Below are positions 13,621-24,755 of a DNA stretch of 25,157 nucleotides, in pieces. Each line of letters starts with the position of its first letter. The stretch's first letter is position 1. Under the pieces are notes generated by a model. The model was not told where the DNA came from, made no database searches, and saw only the letters and a list, made by a program, of their open reading frames with translations. The stretch lies in the IMG/VR virus record IMGVR_UViG_3300031227_000390, positions 1-25,157 of that record; one strand, 5' to 3'. The translations under genes were made by a program, and so were the position numbers. Source of the DNA: a virus.

Positions 13621-13872
13621 ATGCCATCAATGAATTATTCGTTCGATGAAGTTAAGCTTATGCTGGAAGCAATGGGACACGAAGTCATCAATATACGTTC
13701 TGAGAATGGTGAAATGCTCATTGAAAAAATAGAACGATGGGATAAAAAACGGTTGCAAGACATCTTTAAAGTATCCATAAAGAATTTAATCGATGTTGAA
13801 ATAACAGATGATAAGATAATAATGAATCAAAAACTATCATTATATGAGGATCCGGTAGAGTGCAATGGCTGA
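13621..13872 (+). CDS. Hypothetical protein upstream of terL, 83 aa
   Basis: This leaderless gene is the first of the packaging operon; its end overlaps the terL start by 8 nt. The protein has an N-terminal helix (YSFDEVKLMLEAMGHEV), a strand and a second helix (KKRLQDIFKVSIKNLIDVEI) with a short strand-rich end. Its position before terL invites a terminase-related role, but it lacks a helix-turn-helix and is small. Function unknown. Confidence 0.65.
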   Translation: MPSMNYSFDEVKLMLEAMGHEVINIRSENGEMLIEKIERWDKKRLQDIFKVSIKNLIDVEITDDKIIMNQKLSLYEDPVECNG

Positions 13873-15547
13873 CAACTCGAAGTTAACTGACAACGAGGCA
13901 AATTATCTCGTTGAACATCCTGAGATAATAATAGAACAGATCAGGACGATTAAAGGCGAGGAATTTAAACTTGATGATCGTCCATATTTGATTTCCATCT
14001 ATCACGAATTCAAACCATTTAAACCAAAAGTAGTCGTTTGGAAATCATCTCGTAAAATGGAAAAGACTGAAACTGGTGTTAATCTGATTCTGTTGCCTTC
14101 CCTATTCTATGATTATTTCAAATGCTTATATACGATTGCTCGAGGACCACAGGTGCATAATTTTTCCGTGACCAGATTCGAACCGGCAGTAAATGAATGT
14201 AATGGAGGAGTTTACGAGCGCCTGAAAAAGCCAACCTCAGTAAGCCACAAGCGATTTATTTCCGGCATTAACGATAACACTGGCGAGGAACGATATAACG
14301 AGACGTTCTTTTACAGTGCATGGCTGGACGCTTCGTCGATACTTGGACATGACCCTGATTATATTCACGTAGATGAAGCTCAAGATATGGTCGGTGAATG
14401 GTATCCAAAGATCAAAGAGATGCAAAAATTATCACAGTATAAACACATGCTAATCTCTGGAACTGCAAGGGATGAAGGCGATTATTTTGATGATCTTTGG
14501 AAAAAATCAACCATGAACGAATGGTTCGTTACATGCCGAAGTTGTAATCATGAGCATATATTAACAATTGATAATATACTTGGTCCGCCAGGCAGGAAAT
14601 ACAAAGGATGCATCAAGTGTAAGGCGGTAATAGATGTTCGAAATGGTGTATGGAAACCAACGTGCCCAGATCTTAATAGAGCTCGATTTGTGGGTTATCA
14701 CACATGGCAGATAATGCATCCGAGCATAACTGCGAATGATATTTGGGATTCACGAGAGGATTATGGAAAACGACAATTCGATAATGAAGTTCTTGGAATA
14801 TCACATGCCGGAGGACTTAAACCGATAACGATGGGTATGTTGATCGGTGATACAGAGTTTGGTGGCGAACATAAAGGTTGCATAAATAAAAATATCGAGT
14901 ATGTCACAACACATGACAAACCTGGAAATGTCATGGGTATTGATTGTGGAAAGGGTCATCATTATACAGTGATGTCCAAAGAAAAACGTATTCTATACCA
15001 GGGTGTTGTCGACACTATGCAGTATCGAAGTTTTGAACAGGCGATGAGTTTTTTGATATCTACATTCAATCGTTACAACTGCGAAAAATGTGTTATAGAT
15101 TTTGGTTATGGTGCAAATGAAACAAAGGAGATGCAGAATGAATTTGGTGAAAAAGTTCGAGGGTGTAGGTACGGAATAACCGATGTCGATAACTGGTACA
15201 AGTATGTAGAAAAAGATGATGAAGGACATTATATTTATCGATTGAATGTAAATCGATCAAGGGCAATAGAATTGGTAATAGATAGTTTCACGGATGGAGA
15301 AATAGAAATACCATACGGATACAACAGTCAAGAATTGGTAGATAAAACGTTTAAACATTACGTGAGCCTGAAAAGTAATCTTGAAGATCTTATTGAATCA
15401 AAAAAGACAAAGGCAAAAGAAAGGCCCATCGAATACGGACACGATGGACCTGATCATTTTCTTCATACGGTGGTATATTGTTTGTTGGCATTACGCGAAC
15501 CGGAAACTCCGGAACCATGCGTCAGGCGAGTCGGACGTCGTCACTGA
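13865..15547 (+). CDS. terL: Terminase large subunit (ATPase and nuclease), 560 aa
   Basis: This is the motor that pumps and cuts viral DNA at the portal. The N-terminal ATPase shows a Walker A-like KSSRKMEKT at residues 60-68, Walker B YIHVDE at 167-171 with the catalytic Glu, and a coupling SGT at 198-200. A zinc knuckle with C224, C227, C249 and C252 sits between the domains, as in the GpA-like/phage terminase group. The C-terminal RNase H-like nuclease has likely metal ligands D360 (GIDCG), D412 (IDFGYG) and D530 (GPDHFLH). The length is normal. The end overlaps a convergent minus-strand gene by 7 nt. The best-supported gene in the window. Confidence 0.95.
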   Translation: MADNSKLTDNEANYLVEHPEIIIEQIRTIKGEEFKLDDRPYLISIYHEFKPFKPKVVVWKSSRKMEKTETGVNLILLPSLFYDYFKCLYTIARGPQVHNFSVTRFEPAVNECNGGVYERLKKPTSVSHKRFISGINDNTGEERYNETFFYSAWLDASSILGHDPDYIHVDEAQDMVGEWYPKIKEMQKLSQYKHMLISGTARDEGDYFDDLWKKSTMNEWFVTCRSCNHEHILTIDNILGPPGRKYKGCIKCKAVIDVRNGVWKPTCPDLNRARFVGYHTWQIMHPSITANDIWDSREDYGKRQFDNEVLGISHAGGLKPITMGMLIGDTEFGGEHKGCINKNIEYVTTHDKPGNVMGIDCGKGHHYTVMSKEKRILYQGVVDTMQYRSFEQAMSFLISTFNRYNCEKCVIDFGYGANETKEMQNEFGEKVRGCRYGITDVDNWYKYVEKDDEGHYIYRLNVNRSRAIELVIDSFTDGEIEIPYGYNSQELVDKTFKHYVSLKSNLEDLIESKKTKAKERPIEYGHDGPDHFLHTVVYCLLALREPETPEPCVRRVGRRH

Positions 15548-15693
15548 TCTTTTCGCATTCTGTACGCAATGTCGTTTACTGTTCTGTTGTCATAACCAAA
15601 AAGCTTCCTGCATATTATTCCAACTCTTGCTTTTGGATTATGTTTTAACATTTCTTCGACTACGATTCTTTCTCTTGTTTTGTCTCGTCCCAT
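15541..15693 (-). CDS. Small HTH-like basic protein, 50 aa
   Basis: A minus-strand ATG behind GAGGAGGAAGAAT opens a 50-codon frame. The product begins MGRDKTRERIVVEEMLKHNP and continues with ARVGIICRKLFGYDNRTVND and a basic end. The spacing fits a short winged or plain helix-turn-helix (first helix RERIVVEEML, turn near KHNPKA, recognition helix near NRTVNDIAYRM). It is the last gene of a three-gene reverse cassette, overlaps the previous gene by 56 nt and terL by 7 nt. It is a candidate regulator, possibly of the shared promoters, but that link is inference. Confidence 0.6.
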   Translation of the reverse strand: MGRDKTRERIVVEEMLKHNPKARVGIICRKLFGYDNRTVNDIAYRMRKDQ

Positions 15694-15895
15694 ATTCTTC
15701 TTCCTCCTCATTTATCGGCGGATGTTTTTTCACATATTCGATTCCTTTCTTACAGTTGCGACATGATACATAGTTCAGTCGCTTCGGACATGGTTTGCCA
15801 TCAATAAAGCACAAACCATCTGGATAACTCGCGCCCGTTTGTTTATAGTCAGGCAAGCGACAGGCTTTTGGCAATTTCAACTTCCTCCTCGTCAT
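15638..15895 (-). CDS. Cysteine-containing basic protein, 85 aa
   Basis: The frame can start at ATG 15895 or at TTG 15874, which lies a better distance after GAGGAGG; both overlap the upstream reverse gene. The middle has four cysteines (DGLCFIDGKPCPKRLNYVSC and CKKG), probably a zinc site. Five glutamates are then followed by a strongly basic tail (TRQNKRKNRSRRNVKT). The tail overlaps the 15541-15693 gene in another frame. Function unknown; nucleic-acid contact is plausible. Confidence 0.6.
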   Translation of the reverse strand: MTRRKLKLPKACRLPDYKQTGASYPDGLCFIDGKPCPKRLNYVSCRNCKKGIEYVKKHPPINEEEEEYGTRQNKRKNRSRRNVKT

Positions 15896-16172
15896 GATAT
15901 CCAAATAGTTGGCGATATAAAAAGTCGCCATACCATTCGTCATAATCGTCTGCCATTTTCTTTACCATCTTGGTTGCAACTGGATCCTTTTCATATGTTG
16001 CTTTGATCTGTTGCCACTGCTCGTATGTAATATATCCAATTAGGTGATGATATACATCATCCCAATCGTCTGCATACTCGAAAAGATAGTTCTCTAATAG
16101 ATCTATCAATTGCTCCTTTGTTATATGTGTCTCTACAATTTCTGCAAAGACCTTGTTGTTCAGTGTGTACAT
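15849..16172 (-). CDS. Hypothetical acidic helical protein, 107 aa
   Basis: First gene of the reverse cassette. The ATG follows GGAGCTGAATC, close to the leader of the gene at 11415. The protein is rich in D, E, Y and W (LFEYADDWDDVYHHLIGYIT; later ADDYDEWYGDFLYRQL) and almost all helical. Acidic small proteins of this type can mimic DNA, but nothing specific shows it. It is driven by a shared-class promoter variant and inserted between terL and portal. Confidence 0.65.
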   Translation of the reverse strand: MYTLNNKVFAEIVETHITKEQLIDLLENYLFEYADDWDDVYHHLIGYITYEQWQQIKATYEKDPVATKMVKKMADDYDEWYGDFLYRQLFGYHDEEEVEIAKSLSLA

Positions 16173-16245: not shown

Positions 16246-16276
16246 GTTCAAAGAGTGTATGTTATAATAACAAAAG

Positions 16277-16284
16277 TATAAATA
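16277..16284 (+). promoter_or_regulatory. TATA box of the leaderless portal gene
   Basis: TATAAATA is centred 28 nt before the portal ATG at 16309, with no ribosome site. A short palindrome GTTATAATAAC lies just upstream at 16261-16271. The hexamer pair of the shared class is absent on this strand. Confidence 0.65.
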
Positions 16285-16308: not shown

Positions 16309-17721
16309 ATGCCAAAGAAAAAACCAAAAGATCGATCAGGCAATGTCACCGTGAAAAAGCTGGCAAGCTTGGCCGATTACGGTAGCTCATACTGGCAAGA
16401 AGGAAAAGCAGTATCGCCAACCATTGAAAAGAGTTTACTTCGTCGAGTTGCTGAATCGTCAAGGACAGTAGATGGCATTCTCAGAAGGATGGTTGAGGAT
16501 ACCATAAACGTAGAACGATTTATAGTTCCTGCTCCTGGATATGATGAAGTAAGCGAGGCATCAAAAAAGAAAGTGATTGAATTTTTACGGTCGCCAAACC
16601 CAGATGATAAGGGAATGGAATGGTTAGAAGAATTCGTTTATGACTTTTACCTGTTTTGTGAAGCTTATTGGGAAATGTGTGGTAGTGCAGATGATAACCC
16701 GAAAGATACAGATAAATGGTATTTCGGGGGAGAATTTCAAGCACTTTGGCACGTTGACGCTTCGAGTATGTATATCATAGCAAATAACAAGACTGGACAG
16801 ATGAGTACTGATCCATTGGATATGTGCTATGAACAGAAGGTTAATCGTGATAAGGTACAGTTCGATGCAAGAAAAATAATACATATTGCACGATTTCGAA
16901 AGGGTAGGCTGTACGCGAAATCACCACTTGTATCATTACTCAATATTATAGCTGGACAGATCAATCTTACTGGCTACTTAACTGGATTATATGATGGGGA
17001 AATACCACAACAGATTCTCAATGCTGGAGATATGGACGATAAAAAAATGGATCGTTTGATTGCATTGATGCAGGAACAGATTGAGAACGCACAAAACCCA
17101 TATGGCATCATTGCCGTAAATGTCCCGAAAGGATTTCAACTCGAAAAGATTATGGACTCTGCCGAGAGCGGAAAATTCATTGAAGCACTTTTATATTTTC
17201 GGGAAGAAATATGTGGCGTCTTTGGAATGCCACCATCGAAAATGGGTTGGGCAACACCTGGGAAATTAGGATCTCAGACTGACATGGATGATACATATTA
17301 TGATGTCGTTGAGCGAGGTCAAGATAAGATTGAAAAAGCCTTGTATTTCGGGACACTTGCATCAGAAGACGGATTGAATACCCCTGATGCATACATTAAA
17401 TTTGGGCGAGTTCGACCTAAACAAGTAAAAATCGAAGCAGAAGCGAACGCCAAAAATGCCCGAGCAATTCAGGTCAACAGACAAGAACAAATTATGTCAG
17501 TTAATGAAGTTCGGATAAAGTTTTTAAATCTTCCAAAGATTGATGAAGATTGGGCAAGAGATCCACAATTAATTAGTCCGGTATTATCTAATCGTGGTGG
17601 AACTGAAACGGAACCCGAGGAAGAAAAAGAGGAAGAAAAGGGTGCTGAAAATATTATCTTGCGAAGCACAGTGCCAAAAGATTGGCCGTATGACAACGAA
17701 AAAAATAAAAAAAAAAGCTGA
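16309..17721 (+). CDS. Portal protein, 470 aa
   Basis: Forms the twelve-subunit ring at the head vertex through which DNA passes. The family is recognised from the overall pattern: basic N-terminus, DGILRRMVEDTIN helix region, the LYAKSPLVSLLNIIAG stem-side segment, and the FGMPPSKMGWATPGKLGSQT loop followed by DDTYYDVVERGQDKI, typical of HK97/SPP1-type portals. Residues after about 430 are acidic (EPEEEKEEEKG) and not conserved. The gene ends in a run of ten A; a -1 shift there would join it to the following MuF frame. The start is leaderless. Length is usual for the family. Confidence 0.88.
   Translation: MPKKKPKDRSGNVTVKKLASLADYGSSYWQEGKAVSPTIEKSLLRRVAESSRTVDGILRRMVEDTINVERFIVPAPGYDEVSEASKKKVIEFLRSPNPDDKGMEWLEEFVYDFYLFCEAYWEMCGSADDNPKDTDKWYFGGEFQALWHVDASSMYIIANNKTGQMSTDPLDMCYEQKVNRDKVQFDARKIIHIARFRKGRLYAKSPLVSLLNIIAGQINLTGYLTGLYDGEIPQQILNAGDMDDKKMDRLIALMQEQIENAQNPYGIIAVNVPKGFQLEKIMDSAESGKFIEALLYFREEICGVFGMPPSKMGWATPGKLGSQTDMDDTYYDVVERGQDKIEKALYFGTLASEDGLNTPDAYIKFGRVRPKQVKIEAEANAKNARAIQVNRQEQIMSVNEVRIKFLNLPKIDEDWARDPQLISPVLSNRGGTETEPEEEKEEEKGAENIILRSTVPKDWPYDNEKNKKKS
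17707..17716 (+). other. Ten-A run, possible -1 frameshift site joining portal and MuF
   Basis: Portal reads AAT AAA AAA AAA AGC TGA here. The MuF frame (-1) is open from 17709 with no start codon of normal type until ATG 17865, yet its 52 upstream codons look like protein. A slip of one base on the A run bypasses the portal stop. A sequencing or assembly indel would look the same. Confidence 0.5.
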
Positions 17722-17864
17722 TACGGGCAAAGCCAGCAGATAAACCACCAAGTAAAGACCAATTAGATCTTCGAAAAAAACTTCAAGCATTCAGATTAAC
17801 CCAATATTCGATATTTGAAAATCAACTGATTGGTAAGTTCGCCAAGGAAGTTTCAGATCGGGTC

Positions 17865-18530
17865 ATGAAAGTAGTTAAAAAAGTTGCTGGTGTAAAGGGT
17901 CTTAATGATTACATGACCATCGAGCAGTATAATAAAGCATTGTCCGGGATCGGGATGGAGCTGGAGGGGATGGTAGATGTTGGTGTGGAAGGAATGAAAG
18001 GTCCAGATCAAAAAGTCTATAAGAATTCTTTGACATTTACTGGCAATTATTACGGTACGACATTCGCATTTGGGAAGCCTGACATTGATGTAATCAAGTA
18101 TTATGAGAAAAAGTATTATCCTCCTACGTTTAAACGGATGCTGATCGATTATAAAACTCCATACAACTATAAGAACAGTATCAAATCGATCTTTGACAAG
18201 GGGCTCAAAAATCATTGGAACTGGCATAAGGTTATTACGGAAACAAAATCATTCGTCAACCCGATCAGTGGCACGAATTTTCCGAAATGGATGTATAGTC
18301 GCATTGTTAGAACTGAAACTGCTCGCTATGTTGTCGCTGGCCATTTATCTGGTGCCAAAAAGATGGGATTTACTCATATGCGAAGATTGGTTGTTGTCGA
18401 TGATCAAACAGATGAAGATTTATGTTTACCATATGAGAATTATCTTTACACAATGCAAGAAGCAAATGGGTTAATCCCGGCGCACCCTCATTGTAGATGC
18501 GACATCACTCCCGAGCCGGTAGGTGGTTAA
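17865..18530 (+). CDS. MuF-like minor head protein, at least 221 aa
   Basis: Mu gpF-type proteins sit in the capsid near the portal and help head morphogenesis. The C-terminal signature is clear: RIVRTETARYVVAGH, then VDDQTDEDLCLPY, then PAHPHCRCDITP (Cys/His motif at residues about 187-213). The given start ATG 17865 has only a weak, distant AAGGAA. The reading frame continues upstream to 17709 through helical, protein-like sequence (KPADKPPSKDQLDLRKKLQA). The true N-terminus is therefore either longer or supplied by fusion with portal. It lies directly between portal and the gp10-like gene, the usual place. Confidence 0.85.
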   Translation: MKVVKKVAGVKGLNDYMTIEQYNKALSGIGMELEGMVDVGVEGMKGPDQKVYKNSLTFTGNYYGTTFAFGKPDIDVIKYYEKKYYPPTFKRMLIDYKTPYNYKNSIKSIFDKGLKNHWNWHKVITETKSFVNPISGTNFPKWMYSRIVRTETARYVVAGHLSGAKKMGFTHMRRLVVVDDQTDEDLCLPYENYLYTMQEANGLIPAHPHCRCDITPEPVGG

Positions 18531-18557
18531 ATGGGCGGATGGGGTGCAGGAGGAAAT

Positions 18558-18956
18558 ATGGCACAAGCATCGATGGTGTTTACAAGGGTTGAACAAATGG
18601 CCGAAAAGAAATGTCGTCGAGCAATATATGATCTCGGTGCAAAGATATTGAAACAGGCTAAAGAAAATGCACCCTATCGAAGTGGTGCCCTTCGTCGATC
18701 TGGTAGAATTAAAGATGAGAGTCCAAATCGCGGACTATTTGCGCATGTCGTTATATCATTCGGCGGTAGAGGAACAGGCGTGGATTATGCTTATTTTGTT
18801 GAGAGTGGTACTACATATATGCAAGGACGCTTCTATTTATTACGAGCGGTAAGAAAGTTCGCACCACAATTAACAAGGAGCAATCTTCGAGCGTTCGAAG
18901 GTGCATGGGATAATGAGGTAGATAAATTCAATGCAATAAGTCATTTGATACATTAA
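18558..18956 (+). CDS. HK97 gp10-like head-tail/tail completion protein, 132 aa
   Basis: The ATG at 18558 directly after GGAGGAAAT is preferred over 18531, which would add a glycine-rich leader. The typical signature is present: helix (RAIYDLGAKILKQAKENAP), then YRSGALRRSGRI, a strand (HVVISFGG), VDYAYFVESGT and GRFYLLRAVRKF. These match the family that forms the tail completion or neck ring between head and tail. It closes this head operon and overlaps a convergent gene by 4 nt. Slightly divergent, but the motif order is convincing. Confidence 0.8.
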   Translation: MAQASMVFTRVEQMAEKKCRRAIYDLGAKILKQAKENAPYRSGALRRSGRIKDESPNRGLFAHVVISFGGRGTGVDYAYFVESGTTYMQGRFYLLRAVRKFAPQLTRSNLRAFEGAWDNEVDKFNAISHLIH

Positions 18957-19738: not shown

Positions 19739-21277
19739 ATGCCATCAGAGAAAGAAAAAGACGAATGGCTGGCTAATATCAGGTCACCAGATCAGTTCAA
19801 ACACTTGGAACAAATATGGCCAAGCAAGTATCTCAATACTGATTATCCATATAATACCAGTGGCATCCGAGCAATCGGTGGAGAACTTAAATCTGGAAAG
19901 ATCACCGAGCAAACCATACGATTTTCCAAAGATGTCAAATATAATTGGACCGAGGATAAAATAAAATCCTGGCTCAGAAAAAATGACTATCATGTAAAAG
20001 AGATATCTTTGGACGTTCTGAAGCTTTACGCGAAATCTAATAAACCGAACATGTGGTTGAGCTCACCTAATTTCAAGATCAAGTCAGAATTTAAAGCTGG
20101 AGAACCTTTGATCATTGAGGGAATAATTAATTCTGATGCAGTTGATACATATGGCGAGATTGTGGATCCAGATGCAGTTATAGAATCGATGGAGTTCTAT
20201 ATGCGTTATCCAACAGTTAGATACATGCATCAAGCCGAACCAATTGGTAGAACGATCAAGATCTGGAAGGACAAGAACTTTGTTTGGGCGACTATCGAGA
20301 TCGATCCAACTGAAGAAAAGATCATCCAGAAGATAATCAATAAAACGATCACAGCCTTTTCAATTGGATTCCTTGCCGTTGATGCTGTAAAGACCGAAAT
20401 TCAGGAAAATGTTTTTGTGTGGACCTGGACCAAAATTTTCCTCATAGAAATTTCACCCGTTGACAGCCCGGCAAATCGTGACGCTGAAATCAAGGAAGTT
20501 GGATACAAAAGTAATGATGATAAAGGTGCCATTGATATTGATGTTGAAAACACTGAACAGAGGACGACAACTGTTGGTGTTTTGGATCCAAATTTTGATC
20601 TTGCAGGAATTAAGCAGGCGATTAAAGTCAAATCGAGTAAAGGATTGGTGTTTCATATGAAAGTAGCAAAGAAATCCACGGACGAAACGGAATCGGTTGA
20701 AGAAGTTGAGGAAGAGGAAGTTGAACAGGAAGAAGCATCAACCGATGATGAAACTACGCAAGAAGTTGAGCAGGAAACCGAAACAGATGACGATTCTGAT
20801 AAAGAAAAAGAAGATGAGGAGGAAACTGAATCGGAAGCTGAAGAGGAAGAACCAAGCGAGCTTTTGATCATGCAGGACAAGGTCAAGGAAATGGAAAATG
20901 AGATCAGACGGATAAAGCTGACCGAGGATGAAAGAATTGCTGAAGATTTGTTCATAAAACAGGCAGAACCGTTGATTGCTGATTACGAAAAGCAGATCAC
21001 TGAAAAGGATGCACGTATTGCCGAGTTGGAAGCGGAAGTGCTATCGTTGACGAATGAAAAAACGATCAGTGACGAAGTTGAAAAACGGCTGAAGCAAGGA
21101 CCGGCAAGTAAGAGATCACTTTTGAATGATGATGATACTGACGAAGAGCTGGAAGCTGAAAAGATCCGAAACAAGTATGGCTATGATGTAGAGCCAGAGA
21201 TTGCCAACGGATATACGAAGCTGGCCAGAAAACTCAGAGGATTATCGGCAAGAGCCATAGGAGAAAAAACGGAATAA
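19739..21277 (+). CDS. Head maturation protease with C-terminal scaffold-like region, 512 aa
   Basis: Cleaves the capsid precursor during head assembly and, through its tail, may act as scaffold. Residues about 42-85 form a conserved N-terminal unit (GIRAIGGELKSG, then NWTEDKIKSWLRKNDY). Residues 115-255 are the HK97-type protease: Tyr-Met-His-Gln with the catalytic His at 164, TAFSIGF with the nucleophile Ser at 208, and ISPVDSPANRDAEI. Residues about 314-373 are extremely acidic, followed by a coiled coil to about 445 and a helical end. Protease plus scaffold in one chain explains why no separate scaffold gene is present before the capsid gene. The start appears leaderless or short-leadered. 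Confidence 0.85.
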   Translation: MPSEKEKDEWLANIRSPDQFKHLEQIWPSKYLNTDYPYNTSGIRAIGGELKSGKITEQTIRFSKDVKYNWTEDKIKSWLRKNDYHVKEISLDVLKLYAKSNKPNMWLSSPNFKIKSEFKAGEPLIIEGIINSDAVDTYGEIVDPDAVIESMEFYMRYPTVRYMHQAEPIGRTIKIWKDKNFVWATIEIDPTEEKIIQKIINKTITAFSIGFLAVDAVKTEIQENVFVWTWTKIFLIEISPVDSPANRDAEIKEVGYKSNDDKGAIDIDVENTEQRTTTVGVLDPNFDLAGIKQAIKVKSSKGLVFHMKVAKKSTDETESVEEVEEEEVEQEEASTDDETTQEVEQETETDDDSDKEKEDEEETESEAEEEEPSELLIMQDKVKEMENEIRRIKLTEDERIAEDLFIKQAEPLIADYEKQITEKDARIAELEAEVLSLTNEKTISDEVEKRLKQGPASKRSLLNDDDTDEELEAEKIRNKYGYDVEPEIANGYTKLARKLRGLSARAIGEKTE

Positions 21278-21317: not shown

Positions 21318-22361
21318 ATGGACAATAAAGTACCTGGACTGGATAAAATAAAATCGACTTTCAACGGCGACACCGGATACGGAGCCGAGATGTTGCCCGA
21401 AGAACTGAGCACTGCGATCATAAAGCGGGTTTTCGATCTGTCATGGATAAGAAATAGTGTTCCTTCCGTGAACATGACGACACAAACGATGAAACTGCCA
21501 AAGATCACTGGCGGAATCACCATGCAGGGAACATCGAGCAACAAAAACGTTGCCGCCGATGAATCGAGACAGACTACATCCGAAGTAGAGCTCGATATGA
21601 AAACCATCATTGGGAATGCACCCATTGACAACAAAACGACCTTCTATGCCGTTGACACAATGATGCCATCGCTGATGGACGATATCGTTATGTCAGTGTT
21701 GGACACCGAAGAAGATGTGTTTATCAATGGTGATATCACAACTGGCGTGACCAACATCAACGGTGTCTATGATGCAACCAATTTCCCAAATGGATATAAG
21801 AGTAGAGATCCAAAACTGGAACTCAATGGGCTCAGAATTTTCGCTCAGAGCGGAGTTACAGTGAACGCATCTGGTGGATATCTGACACCGTCAGATATCA
21901 ACAATGCACTTGCTGGACTGAGAAAGTATGCATTGACGAAGAGCAACATCCTTGTACTTGTTTCGCATTCCACCGCCGCCACAATAAGGTCATGGGAACA
22001 GTTGGAAACCGTTGAGAAATACGGAAAGGACGCAACGATACTCACTGGCGAGATCGGAAAAGTTCTTGGAACATCTGTTCTTCAATCATCCAGGATCAGC
22101 GATACCTTGGATACAGCCGGAGTTGAGCGAGATCAGAGTGCTGGAACAAGTGCTGATAACAGAACAATCGTTCTTGTTTTCAACAAGACGTCACCGTTGA
22201 TCGGAAATCCTGCCGGAGCAGAAAGGAAGTTCAACGTGAAGATCGATGATCAACCAACCACAGATCGAATCGTTCTCGTGCCAAGGGAGGATCTTGCATT
22301 CGCGAACAAATATGATGAAGCAATTTGCCAAATCATAAACGTGAAAATAGGAACCATTTAA
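21318..22361 (+). CDS. Major capsid protein, HK97 fold, 347 aa
   Basis: Builds the icosahedral shell. The length and pattern match HK97-type capsid proteins: N-terminal arm with EMLPEELSTAIIKRVFDLSW, a strand-rich E-loop region (KLPKITGGITMQGTSS), then SLMDDIVMSVLDTEEDVFING, the P-domain (DINNALAGLRKYAL; ILVLVSHSTAATIRSW) and the C-terminal IVLVPREDLAFANKYDEAIC. No long delta domain precedes it, fitting a scaffold fused to the protease. Codon use is more GC-rich and even, as for a highly expressed gene. AACGAGGTGA is the ribosome site. A hairpin terminator follows. Confidence 0.9.
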   Translation: MDNKVPGLDKIKSTFNGDTGYGAEMLPEELSTAIIKRVFDLSWIRNSVPSVNMTTQTMKLPKITGGITMQGTSSNKNVAADESRQTTSEVELDMKTIIGNAPIDNKTTFYAVDTMMPSLMDDIVMSVLDTEEDVFINGDITTGVTNINGVYDATNFPNGYKSRDPKLELNGLRIFAQSGVTVNASGGYLTPSDINNALAGLRKYALTKSNILVLVSHSTAATIRSWEQLETVEKYGKDATILTGEIGKVLGTSVLQSSRISDTLDTAGVERDQSAGTSADNRTIVLVFNKTSPLIGNPAGAERKFNVKIDDQPTTDRIVLVPREDLAFANKYDEAICQIINVKIGTI

Positions 22362-22374
22362 TCGGACATACCAC

Positions 22375-22403
22375 GCCCCTTGACAATTAGTTGAGGGGCT
22401 TTT
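22375..22403 (+). terminator. Hairpin plus T tract after the capsid gene
   Basis: GCCCCTTGAC and GTTGAGGGGC (22375-22384 and 22390-22399) pair over 10 positions including two G-T pairs, with loop AATTA, then four T. It is the only strong GC stem followed by T in the virion region and would trim or separate the abundant capsid message. Confidence 0.65.
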
Positions 22404-22423
22404 ACGATCACGGAGGTACGGAC

Positions 22424-22750
22424 ATGGTGTACAGAAGCGCGAATTGGGATACATTCCGAGCAACCACACAAAATGGTACAACTGATAGATTATTCTTTAA
22501 CGATTTCGGTGCCAACAATGGTATAATCAATCAATCAGCGAAATCTATCGATGTTCACAATGCCGCCGATCCAGATGATGCCGGGTCAGCCCCTCTAAGA
22601 GTTGCTTTTAATTTAAGAGCTGGAGAAATCGGAACAGCATATCGAACCGTTTACCCGGGTGGATCCATATCATTAGAAGGAAATGTAGACTGCATTGCAT
22701 ATGAAGGAATTGGTGGAACCCCAGCCATTGAAATCACTTATGGGTGGTGA
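22424..22750 (+). CDS. Possible head decoration protein, 108 aa
   Basis: The ATG after CGGAGGTACGGAC is preferred over an upstream in-frame codon at 22391, which overlaps the terminator. The protein is small and beta-rich with many N, G and T residues (MVYRSANWDTFRATTQNGTT; AFNLRAGEIGTAYRTVYPGG) and ends in strands. Placement right after the capsid gene suits a decoration or stabilising protein, but no family signature is recognised, so the role rests on position. Confidence 0.6.
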   Translation: MVYRSANWDTFRATTQNGTTDRLFFNDFGANNGIINQSAKSIDVHNAADPDDAGSAPLRVAFNLRAGEIGTAYRTVYPGGSISLEGNVDCIAYEGIGGTPAIEITYGW

Positions 22751-22752
22751 CG

Positions 22753-23085
22753 ATGGGTGGATGGTCGATCAAAAAACAACAAGCCGAGTGCAAAAAGCAG
22801 TACATACACAAAGACATTATCTATGACCGGTGGCGTAAAGATTCAGAATTTCAAACATTGGTAACAAATTCTTTGAACAATCTGAATCGTGGTATGTATT
22901 ATGGTAAGAGAAAAATGAAACCGCCAAGTAACATTAAACAAAACACTGGTAGGATATTCGTAGAAAACGTGCCTGGAGTTGGTGCCGTTGAATTACCAAC
23001 GACTAAATTAACTTTACTCGTTATATCTGGCTGTATTGGAATAAGTATTATCGTGGTAGTTGCTTATTATTGTGGGGTGTTTTAA
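22753..23085 (+). CDS. Small protein with C-terminal membrane anchor, 110 aa
   Basis: The ATG at 22753 is 2 nt after the previous stop; GTG codons at 22744 overlap that gene and are less likely. Residues 1-80 are basic and helical, then a Pro/Gly-rich linker. Residues about 88-108 form one hydrophobic helix (LTLLVISGCIGISIIVVVAY). A tail-anchored protein encoded between capsid and fibre genes is unusual; a structural, lysis or membrane-docking role is possible. The stop overlaps the next start (TAATG). Confidence 0.65.
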   Translation: MGGWSIKKQQAECKKQYIHKDIIYDRWRKDSEFQTLVTNSLNNLNRGMYYGKRKMKPPSNIKQNTGRIFVENVPGVGAVELPTTKLTLLVISGCIGISIIVVVAYYCGVF

Positions 23086-24755
23086 TGTATTTAGAAACCG
23101 GTGATTATAAAGTTCGAAACGGAGCTATCTATGTCAAGACTGGAATAGGTGGGTATGGTGATATTGATGTTCCACTTTTGAATAACATTGACATGAATGG
23201 CAAGAATATTCAAACAGTAACACCGGCAGAAATGACTTATCTGCATGGTGTAACATCAGATATTCAAGCTCAGATAAATGCAAAAACTTCTTATCCAAGC
23301 GCGGGTGAACAAGCGTTTTTAGATGCAGATCATACCAAACTTGATACAATCGAAAATTCGGCTGATGTTACTGATGCAGACAATGTAAATACTGCTGGAG
23401 CCGTTATGGAAAGTGATTATAATGCGCACACCATTCTTCGAGCAATAGCAAATAATACACCATTGGCGCTAACAGTCGGAGAACAGACTTTAGTCGGTAG
23501 AATAACGGGTGGCAATATAACAGCACTTACACCGACACAGATTAGAACCCTGATAAATGTTGCCGACGGAGCTGATGTAAGTCCTTGGACAACAGTAGCA
23601 AATGAGACCTATCTAACAATTGGAACGGATGAGATAGTATCCACTGGTGGGTTGACAATAAGGGACTCCGGAACACATCCACTCACAATTGAAAATGATG
23701 ATGGAGATGAAAGTGGAACTATTTATAGAACTAATGATGACCTCACGTTCAATTCTGGAACAGGTGGCGGTATAGCCCTTATCTCAATTAATGATATTAC
23801 GAATAAACTTGGTGATGATGCAGGAGTGAACTATTGGCAATTACTTGACAGTGCAAATGCAATAGTACTACAAGTGGATTCAAATGGAGTTATCTCTGGA
23901 GGCGGGACAGCAGTTCACTTCTCATCCACAACCACGATCACAAACACGCTTGGGGATAACGCTGGATCATATTCATTCATTGTAGAGGATAGTGGAAATA
24001 ACAATAAATTTGAGATTAATTCTGATGCTGATACTCTATGGACAATGGAAGCGGATAGTACCATTAAAATTGATGCTGACACCACGAATCATACGATTGG
24101 CTCCATTTTCACCATAGATGCCGGGATAAACTCTGCCACTGTTGATGTTATAGACCTTAATATAACCGTGGGGACTGCACTATCTGCCAGTGAAGTTGTC
24201 ACTGGGTGGAATCTGTCAATTGATGGTGATGGTGGAGATGATGTAACATCCATAATCAGAGGTATGTACCTTGAATACGGTGGAACATCATCTGGAATTT
24301 CAAGGGCATTGCATTTTGAAGGATCATGGGATTATGAAATTTACTGTGGCGGTGATCTGAAGATTGGTATGGACACGAATGATGGAACAACATCATTTGA
24401 GATTTGGAATAGTGATGATTCAAAGGTAATCGAGATCGATAGCGATGGAACTATACAGGGAACACTCGCAGGGTCAGAGTTTGAGACTGCTAACGACTGT
24501 GCGGTCGCCGCCTTGACAATAGATCAGAATGATGATGATCAACCATTCCTGAAATTTGAGGGTGTTGGAGCCGCCGACCAAACCAAGAATTTTTCTAATG
24601 TAAATGGTGATGGGGCGGCAAGTGGACCACTCTTATACTCCTCGAATCCTGGTTGGATATTCGTTGGAATGGTGAGACATGAAATGGAAGATACTGCTAA
24701 TGTTATGAGCGATCAAGATGTTTGGGTTCCATTATACATACCAAATACAAGTTGA
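23085..24755 (+). CDS. Tail-fibre-like or receptor-binding structural protein, 556 aa
   Basis: The ATG overlaps the previous stop. Residues about 44-67 carry VTPAEMTYLHGVTSDIQAQI, which closely resembles the repeat unit (EIGYLDGVTSAIQTQI) common in phage tail fibres. The centre has beta repeats of about 45-60 residues with the pattern NxLGDxAG...F/VxDS...xIxSDG (for example around ITNKLGDDAGVNYWQLLDSA and TNTLGDNAGSYSFIVEDSG), typical of trimeric fibrous proteins. It is Thr/Asn/Asp/Gly-rich with almost no cysteine. The C-terminal domain may bind the host surface. No intramolecular chaperone is recognised. Confidence 0.75.
   Translation: MYLETGDYKVRNGAIYVKTGIGGYGDIDVPLLNNIDMNGKNIQTVTPAEMTYLHGVTSDIQAQINAKTSYPSAGEQAFLDADHTKLDTIENSADVTDADNVNTAGAVMESDYNAHTILRAIANNTPLALTVGEQTLVGRITGGNITALTPTQIRTLINVADGADVSPWTTVANETYLTIGTDEIVSTGGLTIRDSGTHPLTIENDDGDESGTIYRTNDDLTFNSGTGGGIALISINDITNKLGDDAGVNYWQLLDSANAIVLQVDSNGVISGGGTAVHFSSTTTITNTLGDNAGSYSFIVEDSGNNNKFEINSDADTLWTMEADSTIKIDADTTNHTIGSIFTIDAGINSATVDVIDLNITVGTALSASEVVTGWNLSIDGDGGDDVTSIIRGMYLEYGGTSSGISRALHFEGSWDYEIYCGGDLKIGMDTNDGTTSFEIWNSDDSKVIEIDSDGTIQGTLAGSEFETANDCAVAALTIDQNDDDQPFLKFEGVGAADQTKNFSNVNGDGAASGPLLYSSNPGWIFVGMVRHEMEDTANVMSDQDVWVPLYIPNTS

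Follow-up and report, generated by a model that had tools for sequence, protein, structure and literature searches.

A probable -1 frameshift between portal and MuF head genes in a virus of likely archaeal host, with a matching design in Bacillus-type phages

In the tail assembly chaperone genes of phage lambda (G/GT) and of HVTV-1, HCTV-1, 2 and 5, a -1 slip before the stop codon yields a minority, longer assembly protein, and the lambda site is reportedly G_GGA_AAG. In archaeal viruses, frameshifts have been reported for these tail chaperones of HVTV-1, HCTV-1, 2 and 5, together with a +1 event in HSTV-2 (PMC8211752, PMC5009743). In T7 (10A/10B), Lactobacillus phage A2 and the phiEco32-like phages, including Privateer, slippage close to the 3' end of a structural gene is described, whereby a minor, longer form of a virion protein is made (PMC7881722, PMC5009743). 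The locus analyzed here resembles both arrangements but joins other genes. Whereas the tail systems concern chaperones, here the genes are those of the portal and of MuF, and the longer product should remain part of the virion; and whereas the capsid systems extend a major capsid or tail protein, here a ring-forming portal gains a complete second head protein. Outside viruses, the archaeal gene fucA1 of Sulfolobus solfataricus carries an A_AAA_AAT -1 site, and the gene is full length in relatives that lack one A (PMC8211752), a one-A difference comparable to that found in one relative of our virus. However, fucA1 encodes a cellular enzyme and has a putative stem-loop and rare codons, whereas in our case no stimulator was detected, and the design has persisted at roughly 50% identity.

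Portal-MuF gene fusions have been reported in Microbacterium phages of clusters EA and EB (PMC7302621), and these in-frame fusions, like those represented by the profile PHROG_2662 and by L007, combine both proteins in a single chain, arranged in the order seen here. In such fusions every portal subunit bears a MuF, whereas in our virus only slipped copies would carry it. The MuF protein of SPP1, gp7, is bound to the portal (gp6), and few copies of it enter the procapsid (PMC6316719). The likeness lies in a portal-associated MuF present in few copies; SPP1 differs in having two separate proteins joined by binding, and a tandem stop, UGAUAA, closes its portal gene. No report of a portal-MuF frameshift was found in the literature searched, which did not extend to subscription papers, and a comparison of 93 Bacillus phages including Andromeda leaves frameshifting unmentioned (PMC4197329).

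The window, that is, the whole stretch of 25157 bases under analysis, is a linear IMG/VR virus record (IMGVR_UViG_3300031227_000390) in which portal and MuF sit between terminase and capsid (Table 1). The portal passes the Pfam cut-off for PF04860 (91.8 bits against 39.1). The MuF product, whose gene adjoins the portal, matches the minor head or head morphogenesis families PHROG_115 (E 2e-8) and PHROG_4728 (E 4e-8), and remains below the cut-off for Pfam PF04233 (13.6 against 29.6 bits). No SD was found before the portal ATG; the upstream TATA-like element is inferred to be the promoter of a leaderless portal transcript, and the capsid genes are preceded by GAGGTG-type SD sequences. An archaeal host is likely, although not shown, and rests on the TATA-like element without SD and on the GAGGTG-type SDs. 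Genome scans revealed no provirus relatives, and a terminase query against viral contigs found no relative. Only two distinct relatives covering the junction were found in IMG/VR: L018 (IMGVR_UViG_3300031227_001180), with a portal 51% and a MuF 42% identical to those of the window, and L011 (IMGVR_UViG_3300008470_000403), with 93% identical DNA. The contig L020 is nearly the same virus as L018 from another sample, and ends before the junction.

Table 1. Head module and portal-MuF junction of the window (positions in the window)
Feature	Position	Strand	Remarks
Terminase large subunit	13865-15547		Head module
Archaeal-like TATA element AAAGTATAAATA	16270-16284	+	About 28 nt 5' of portal ATG; read from sequence
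Portal	16309-17721	+	470 aa if frame kept; PF04860, PHROG_12/2662
Run of ten A, proposed -1 slip site	17707-17716	+	Portal-frame A_AAA_AAA at 17709-17715
MuF (minor head protein) frame	17709-18530	+	273 codons plus stop; fusion partner
Start-less MuF-frame segment	17709-17864	+	52 codons, no ATG/GTG/TTG
Portal stop TGA	17719-17721	+	Two codons past last AAA
First ATG of MuF frame	17865-17867	+	Start not conserved; first ATG of L018 elsewhere
HK97-gp10-like protein	18531-18956		Head module
Prohead protease	19739-21277		Head module
Major capsid	21318-22361		Head module

The portal gene of the window ends in GAA AAA AAT AAA AAA AAA AGC TGA. The MuF frame is -1 relative to the portal and opens only after TAA 17706-17708, so that a slip must fall within 17709-17718, an interval of 10 nt nearly coextensive with the A run. 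Both the window and L018 carry an in-phase slippery heptamer A_AAA_AAA in the overlap, 5' of the zero-frame stop, within a homopolymer of about nine or more at the frame change (A10 and A9, respectively). Each run is the only homopolymer of at least nine in its contig, and among the Lys-Lys-Lys tracts of the genes checked in these two viruses, the junction tract alone is pure AAA, all others containing AAG. Since 0.43 A runs of at least ten are expected by chance in the window and one was seen, the A10 run alone is unremarkable and was set aside as evidence; its non-chance aspect is its position at the junction. Downstream of the junction, no RNA fold better than shuffles or chance was detected; a stimulatory RNA structure or an internal SD is usual, but not required, for programmed -1 frameshifting.

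Several observations bear on whether the start-less segment is translated. In the 48 codons upstream of the ATG, window and L011 differ in the MuF frame by 8 silent and 2 replacement changes (7 of the 10 at codon position 3), whereas the two other frames give 8 replacement and 0-1 silent differences. When the stretch after the A run and before the first ATG was aligned between window and L018, the score was 47, against a shuffle mean of 20.9; this value was reached by none of the 5000 shuffles, and all other frame pairs scored 36 or less. In addition, the PHROG_115 match to the MuF of the window starts inside the segment, at residue 18. Substitution pattern and homology to L018, two independent tests, thus say yes: as judged from these comparisons, the 52 codons appear to be translated or under protein-level selection. 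An AlphaFold model of MuF, built on a 3-row alignment, reached a mean pLDDT of 44, and its low-confidence helix 16-60 spans the ATG. A sequence-only reading had held that the portal stops just past ten A, that the MuF frame is open from 17709 without a usual start for 52 codons, and that these codons read as natural helical protein. The observation was confirmed: the portal ORF ends on the run, the next ATG is the one at 17865, and the segment is conserved as described above. That reading had also proposed a -1 slip leading to a fusion of about 743 residues; the arrangement is supported by L018 and by 13 Bacillus-type junctions (see below), but the computed length of the fusion is 740 aa.

Translation of MuF as a separate protein, without any fusion, could be envisaged through reinitiation at CTG 17718 or ATA 17721, both directly after the run and in the MuF frame, or through a start at ATG 17865. 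Phage operons often use reinitiation downstream of a stop codon. Nevertheless, L011 has GCA in place of CTG 17718, L018 lacks any ATG, GTG or TTG before its first ATG, which is itself not at the homologous place, no good SD precedes ATG 17865 in the window, and the starts annotated in Bacillus-type phages are neither at a constant position nor of one codon type, and would truncate conserved protein. The CTG, ATA and ATG starts, none of them conserved, were therefore rejected, and separate translation is regarded as very improbable.

The two relatives disagree at the junction. L018, whose portal ends in AAC AAA AAA AAA CTC AAA AAA CGA AGT TTA TAA, keeps the -1 arrangement, with MuF in the -1 frame on the A9 run and no ATG, GTG or TTG for 52 codons; its other head genes are intact. 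L011 has A11, which places portal and MuF in one open frame. Thus, the same run, which the sequence-only reading had suggested looking for in relatives, recurs with the frame change in one of them, and in frame in a lesioned contig in the other. The L011 contig carries an in-frame TGA inside MuF (L011:1470-1472; ACA at 18060 in the window) and a one-base loss at the place matching window position 22597, in the gene matching window 22391-22750. Its first 353 nt or so (L011:1-353) are unlike the portal upstream region and look like repeated, unrelated sequence, either a putative chimeric contig end or a rearrangement. Because of the in-frame TGA and the one-base loss, L011 is regarded as either poorly assembled or undergoing decay. 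Three origins are conceivable for its A11: an artefact, genuine in-frame variation, or decay. A copy with 11 A is what the sequence-only reading had named as a refuting result; the one in L011 is the chief evidence that the frameshift is not fixed, and weakens the case without overturning it, because the contig carries other lesions. Shifted junctions of the window's own type number only two (window and L018), both from metagenome assemblies without read check.

A rival explanation is an assembly or sequencing error, according to which the true runs would be A11 in the window and A10 in L018, and portal and MuF simply one fused gene. A runs are where such errors fall, L011 has its run in frame, and fused genes are known in L007 and in Microbacterium phages (PMC7302621). 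However, two contigs with otherwise intact head genes would each have had to undergo the same one-base loss independently, the in-frame run occurs in the very contig that has other lesions, and the 12 canonical heptamers of isolated phages (see below) cannot be homopolymer errors. We consider this explanation unlikely. Lesions do occur in the group, as L011 illustrates, and a recent mutation might likewise have broken the portal-MuF gene of the window in a decaying or defective genome; but the other head genes of the window are open, and the same arrangement is found in L018 at about 50% protein identity, which leaves this possibility hardly credible.

A larger set of junctions supports the preferred reading, a slip between portal and MuF. 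Geobacillus phage GBK1 and many Bacillus phages encode terminases related to that of the window (28% identity, E 1e-47), and a Bacillus-type set was compiled from the portal-MuF junctions of eleven phages and two related plasmids (n = 13). In all 13, MuF lies in the -1 frame, open back into the portal end and overlapping it, and in 12 a canonical in-phase slippery heptamer directly precedes the portal stop: G_GGA_AAG in nine (GBK1, Finn, Gemini, 276BB001, Riggi, Blastoid, Novomoskovsk, PcaP2EGY and p_ACL01CRY2), G_GGA_AAA in VPHSA1, and A_AAA_AAG in BpsS-36 and PS1; a weaker site, G_GAA_AAG, is present in the Halobacillus plasmid. In phages, GGGAAAG is already recognized as a frameshift signal (PMC7881722). 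The class of heptamer is kept while its letters change, since the A_AAA_AAG members have altered all G positions together. Elsewhere in Bacillus-type portals, heptamers of this class occupy 20 of 6538 codon positions (0.3%), and none was found in the last 12 portal codons of eight control phages; in most of these, the next head gene is preceded by a clear SD. The -1 frame relation by itself was set aside as evidence, as it is shared by three of the eight controls. A conserved peptide, GKVxASE..FGERR..AD, runs across the Bacillus-type junction, and the annotated MuF starts vary in position and codon (ATG, GTG, TTG), cutting through conserved protein; to judge from the sequences, they look mis-annotated. 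Only a weak, 5-pair stem was seen near these junctions. The thirteen are not thirteen independent events, because the phages are mutually related.

Some members of this set have features of their own. In GBK1 (L012:3211-5073) and BpsS-36 (L022:4431-6359), MuF is greatly extended at its C terminus, the annotated protein measuring about 620-640 aa, compared with about 300 aa in Finn; the extension is possibly a cargo domain carried on a frameshifted MuF. MVC_VPHSA1 (L026), recorded from Staphylococcus aureus, and PcaP2EGY (L024), recorded from Pectobacterium, fall inside the Bacillus-type portal clade, and their host labels or assemblies may need checking. The terminase and MuF of VPHSA1 are annotated in pieces.

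Taken together, we consider it likely that programmed -1 frameshifting on the A run yields a minority portal-MuF fusion. What is directly observed comprises the frames, the slip site, a conserved MuF stretch without a start, and a -1 design that recurs in L018 and the Bacillus-type phages; the slip itself, its mainly ribosomal mechanism and its stoichiometric role are inferred, in the absence of reads and peptides. According to the proposed mechanism, most ribosomes would stop at TGA 17719 and release the portal, and a minority would slip back one base within A_AAA_AAA and read on into MuF. Short and long forms would co-assemble in the single portal ring of each head; as both share this ring, the frequency of slipping would keep the number of MuF copies low and position them at the portal. 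With a slip rate near 10% and a ring of about twelve subunits, one or two subunits would be expected to bear MuF.

The same fusion could also arise by transcriptional slippage, if RNA polymerase adds an A on the A10 run and part of the mRNA is A11. The A10 and A9 runs are compatible with either process, -1 slippage of the ribosome on A_AAA_AAA or insertion of an extra A during transcription. Run lengths of 9-11 are within the known range of bacterial polymerase slippage (PMC1088944), no ribosomal stimulator was found, and the fused form of L011 is exactly A11. However, both A-run members carry an in-phase A_AAA_AAA, and the convergent Bacillus-type G_GGA_AAG is not a homopolymer; indeed, since most Bacillus-type heptamers are not homopolymers, the ribosome is indicated as the slipping agent. 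Transcriptional slippage as the source of the fusion is thus a real but less favored possibility, and, provided that the frameshift is real, there is a moderate preference for the ribosome over the polymerase.

The two groups of junctions do not appear to share a portal ancestry. Their portals belong to different families (PHROG_12/2662 in the window group, PHROG_113 in the Bacillus-type set), BLASTP detected no similarity between the GBK1 and L018 portals, and the frameshift label requires two changes on the portal tree, which has some long branches and an unsure deep order. A single shared origin was rejected on the basis of the portal families and this tree, and the common -1 design is best explained by convergence, or by a portal exchange in which the design was retained. 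PHROG_2662 is a 717-position portal profile, matched by the portal of the window at 59-409; positions within 467-708 match the MuF domain of the Bacillus-type phages and, weakly, of the window (E 0.12). As this profile covers portal and MuF, fully fused versions do exist, L007 being one example, which together with the Microbacterium phages bears out the earlier remark that the two genes are fused in other genomes. On balance, we lean toward the view that portal-MuF frameshifting has evolved at least twice, on an A run in probable archaeal viruses and on G_GGA_AAG and its variants in Bacillus-type phages, as a general device by which one or two of the roughly twelve subunits of the portal ring come to bear MuF. 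The data suggest a general, and apparently undescribed, way of fixing the number of MuF copies per head. If true, this would explain how some tailed viruses load only few copies of MuF into the head, would imply mixed portal rings, and would give archaea a head-gene case on their short list of recoding events.

Beyond the junction, a 561 aa ORF 3' of the capsid genes (window 23070-24755), for which a Pfam search gave no match, differs from L011 in a large internal segment, window 23711-24219 having no counterpart there. Small minus-strand ORFs lie between terminase and portal in both the window (15638-16172) and L018 (L018:3001-3333), interrupting the head operon at the same place in the two viruses.
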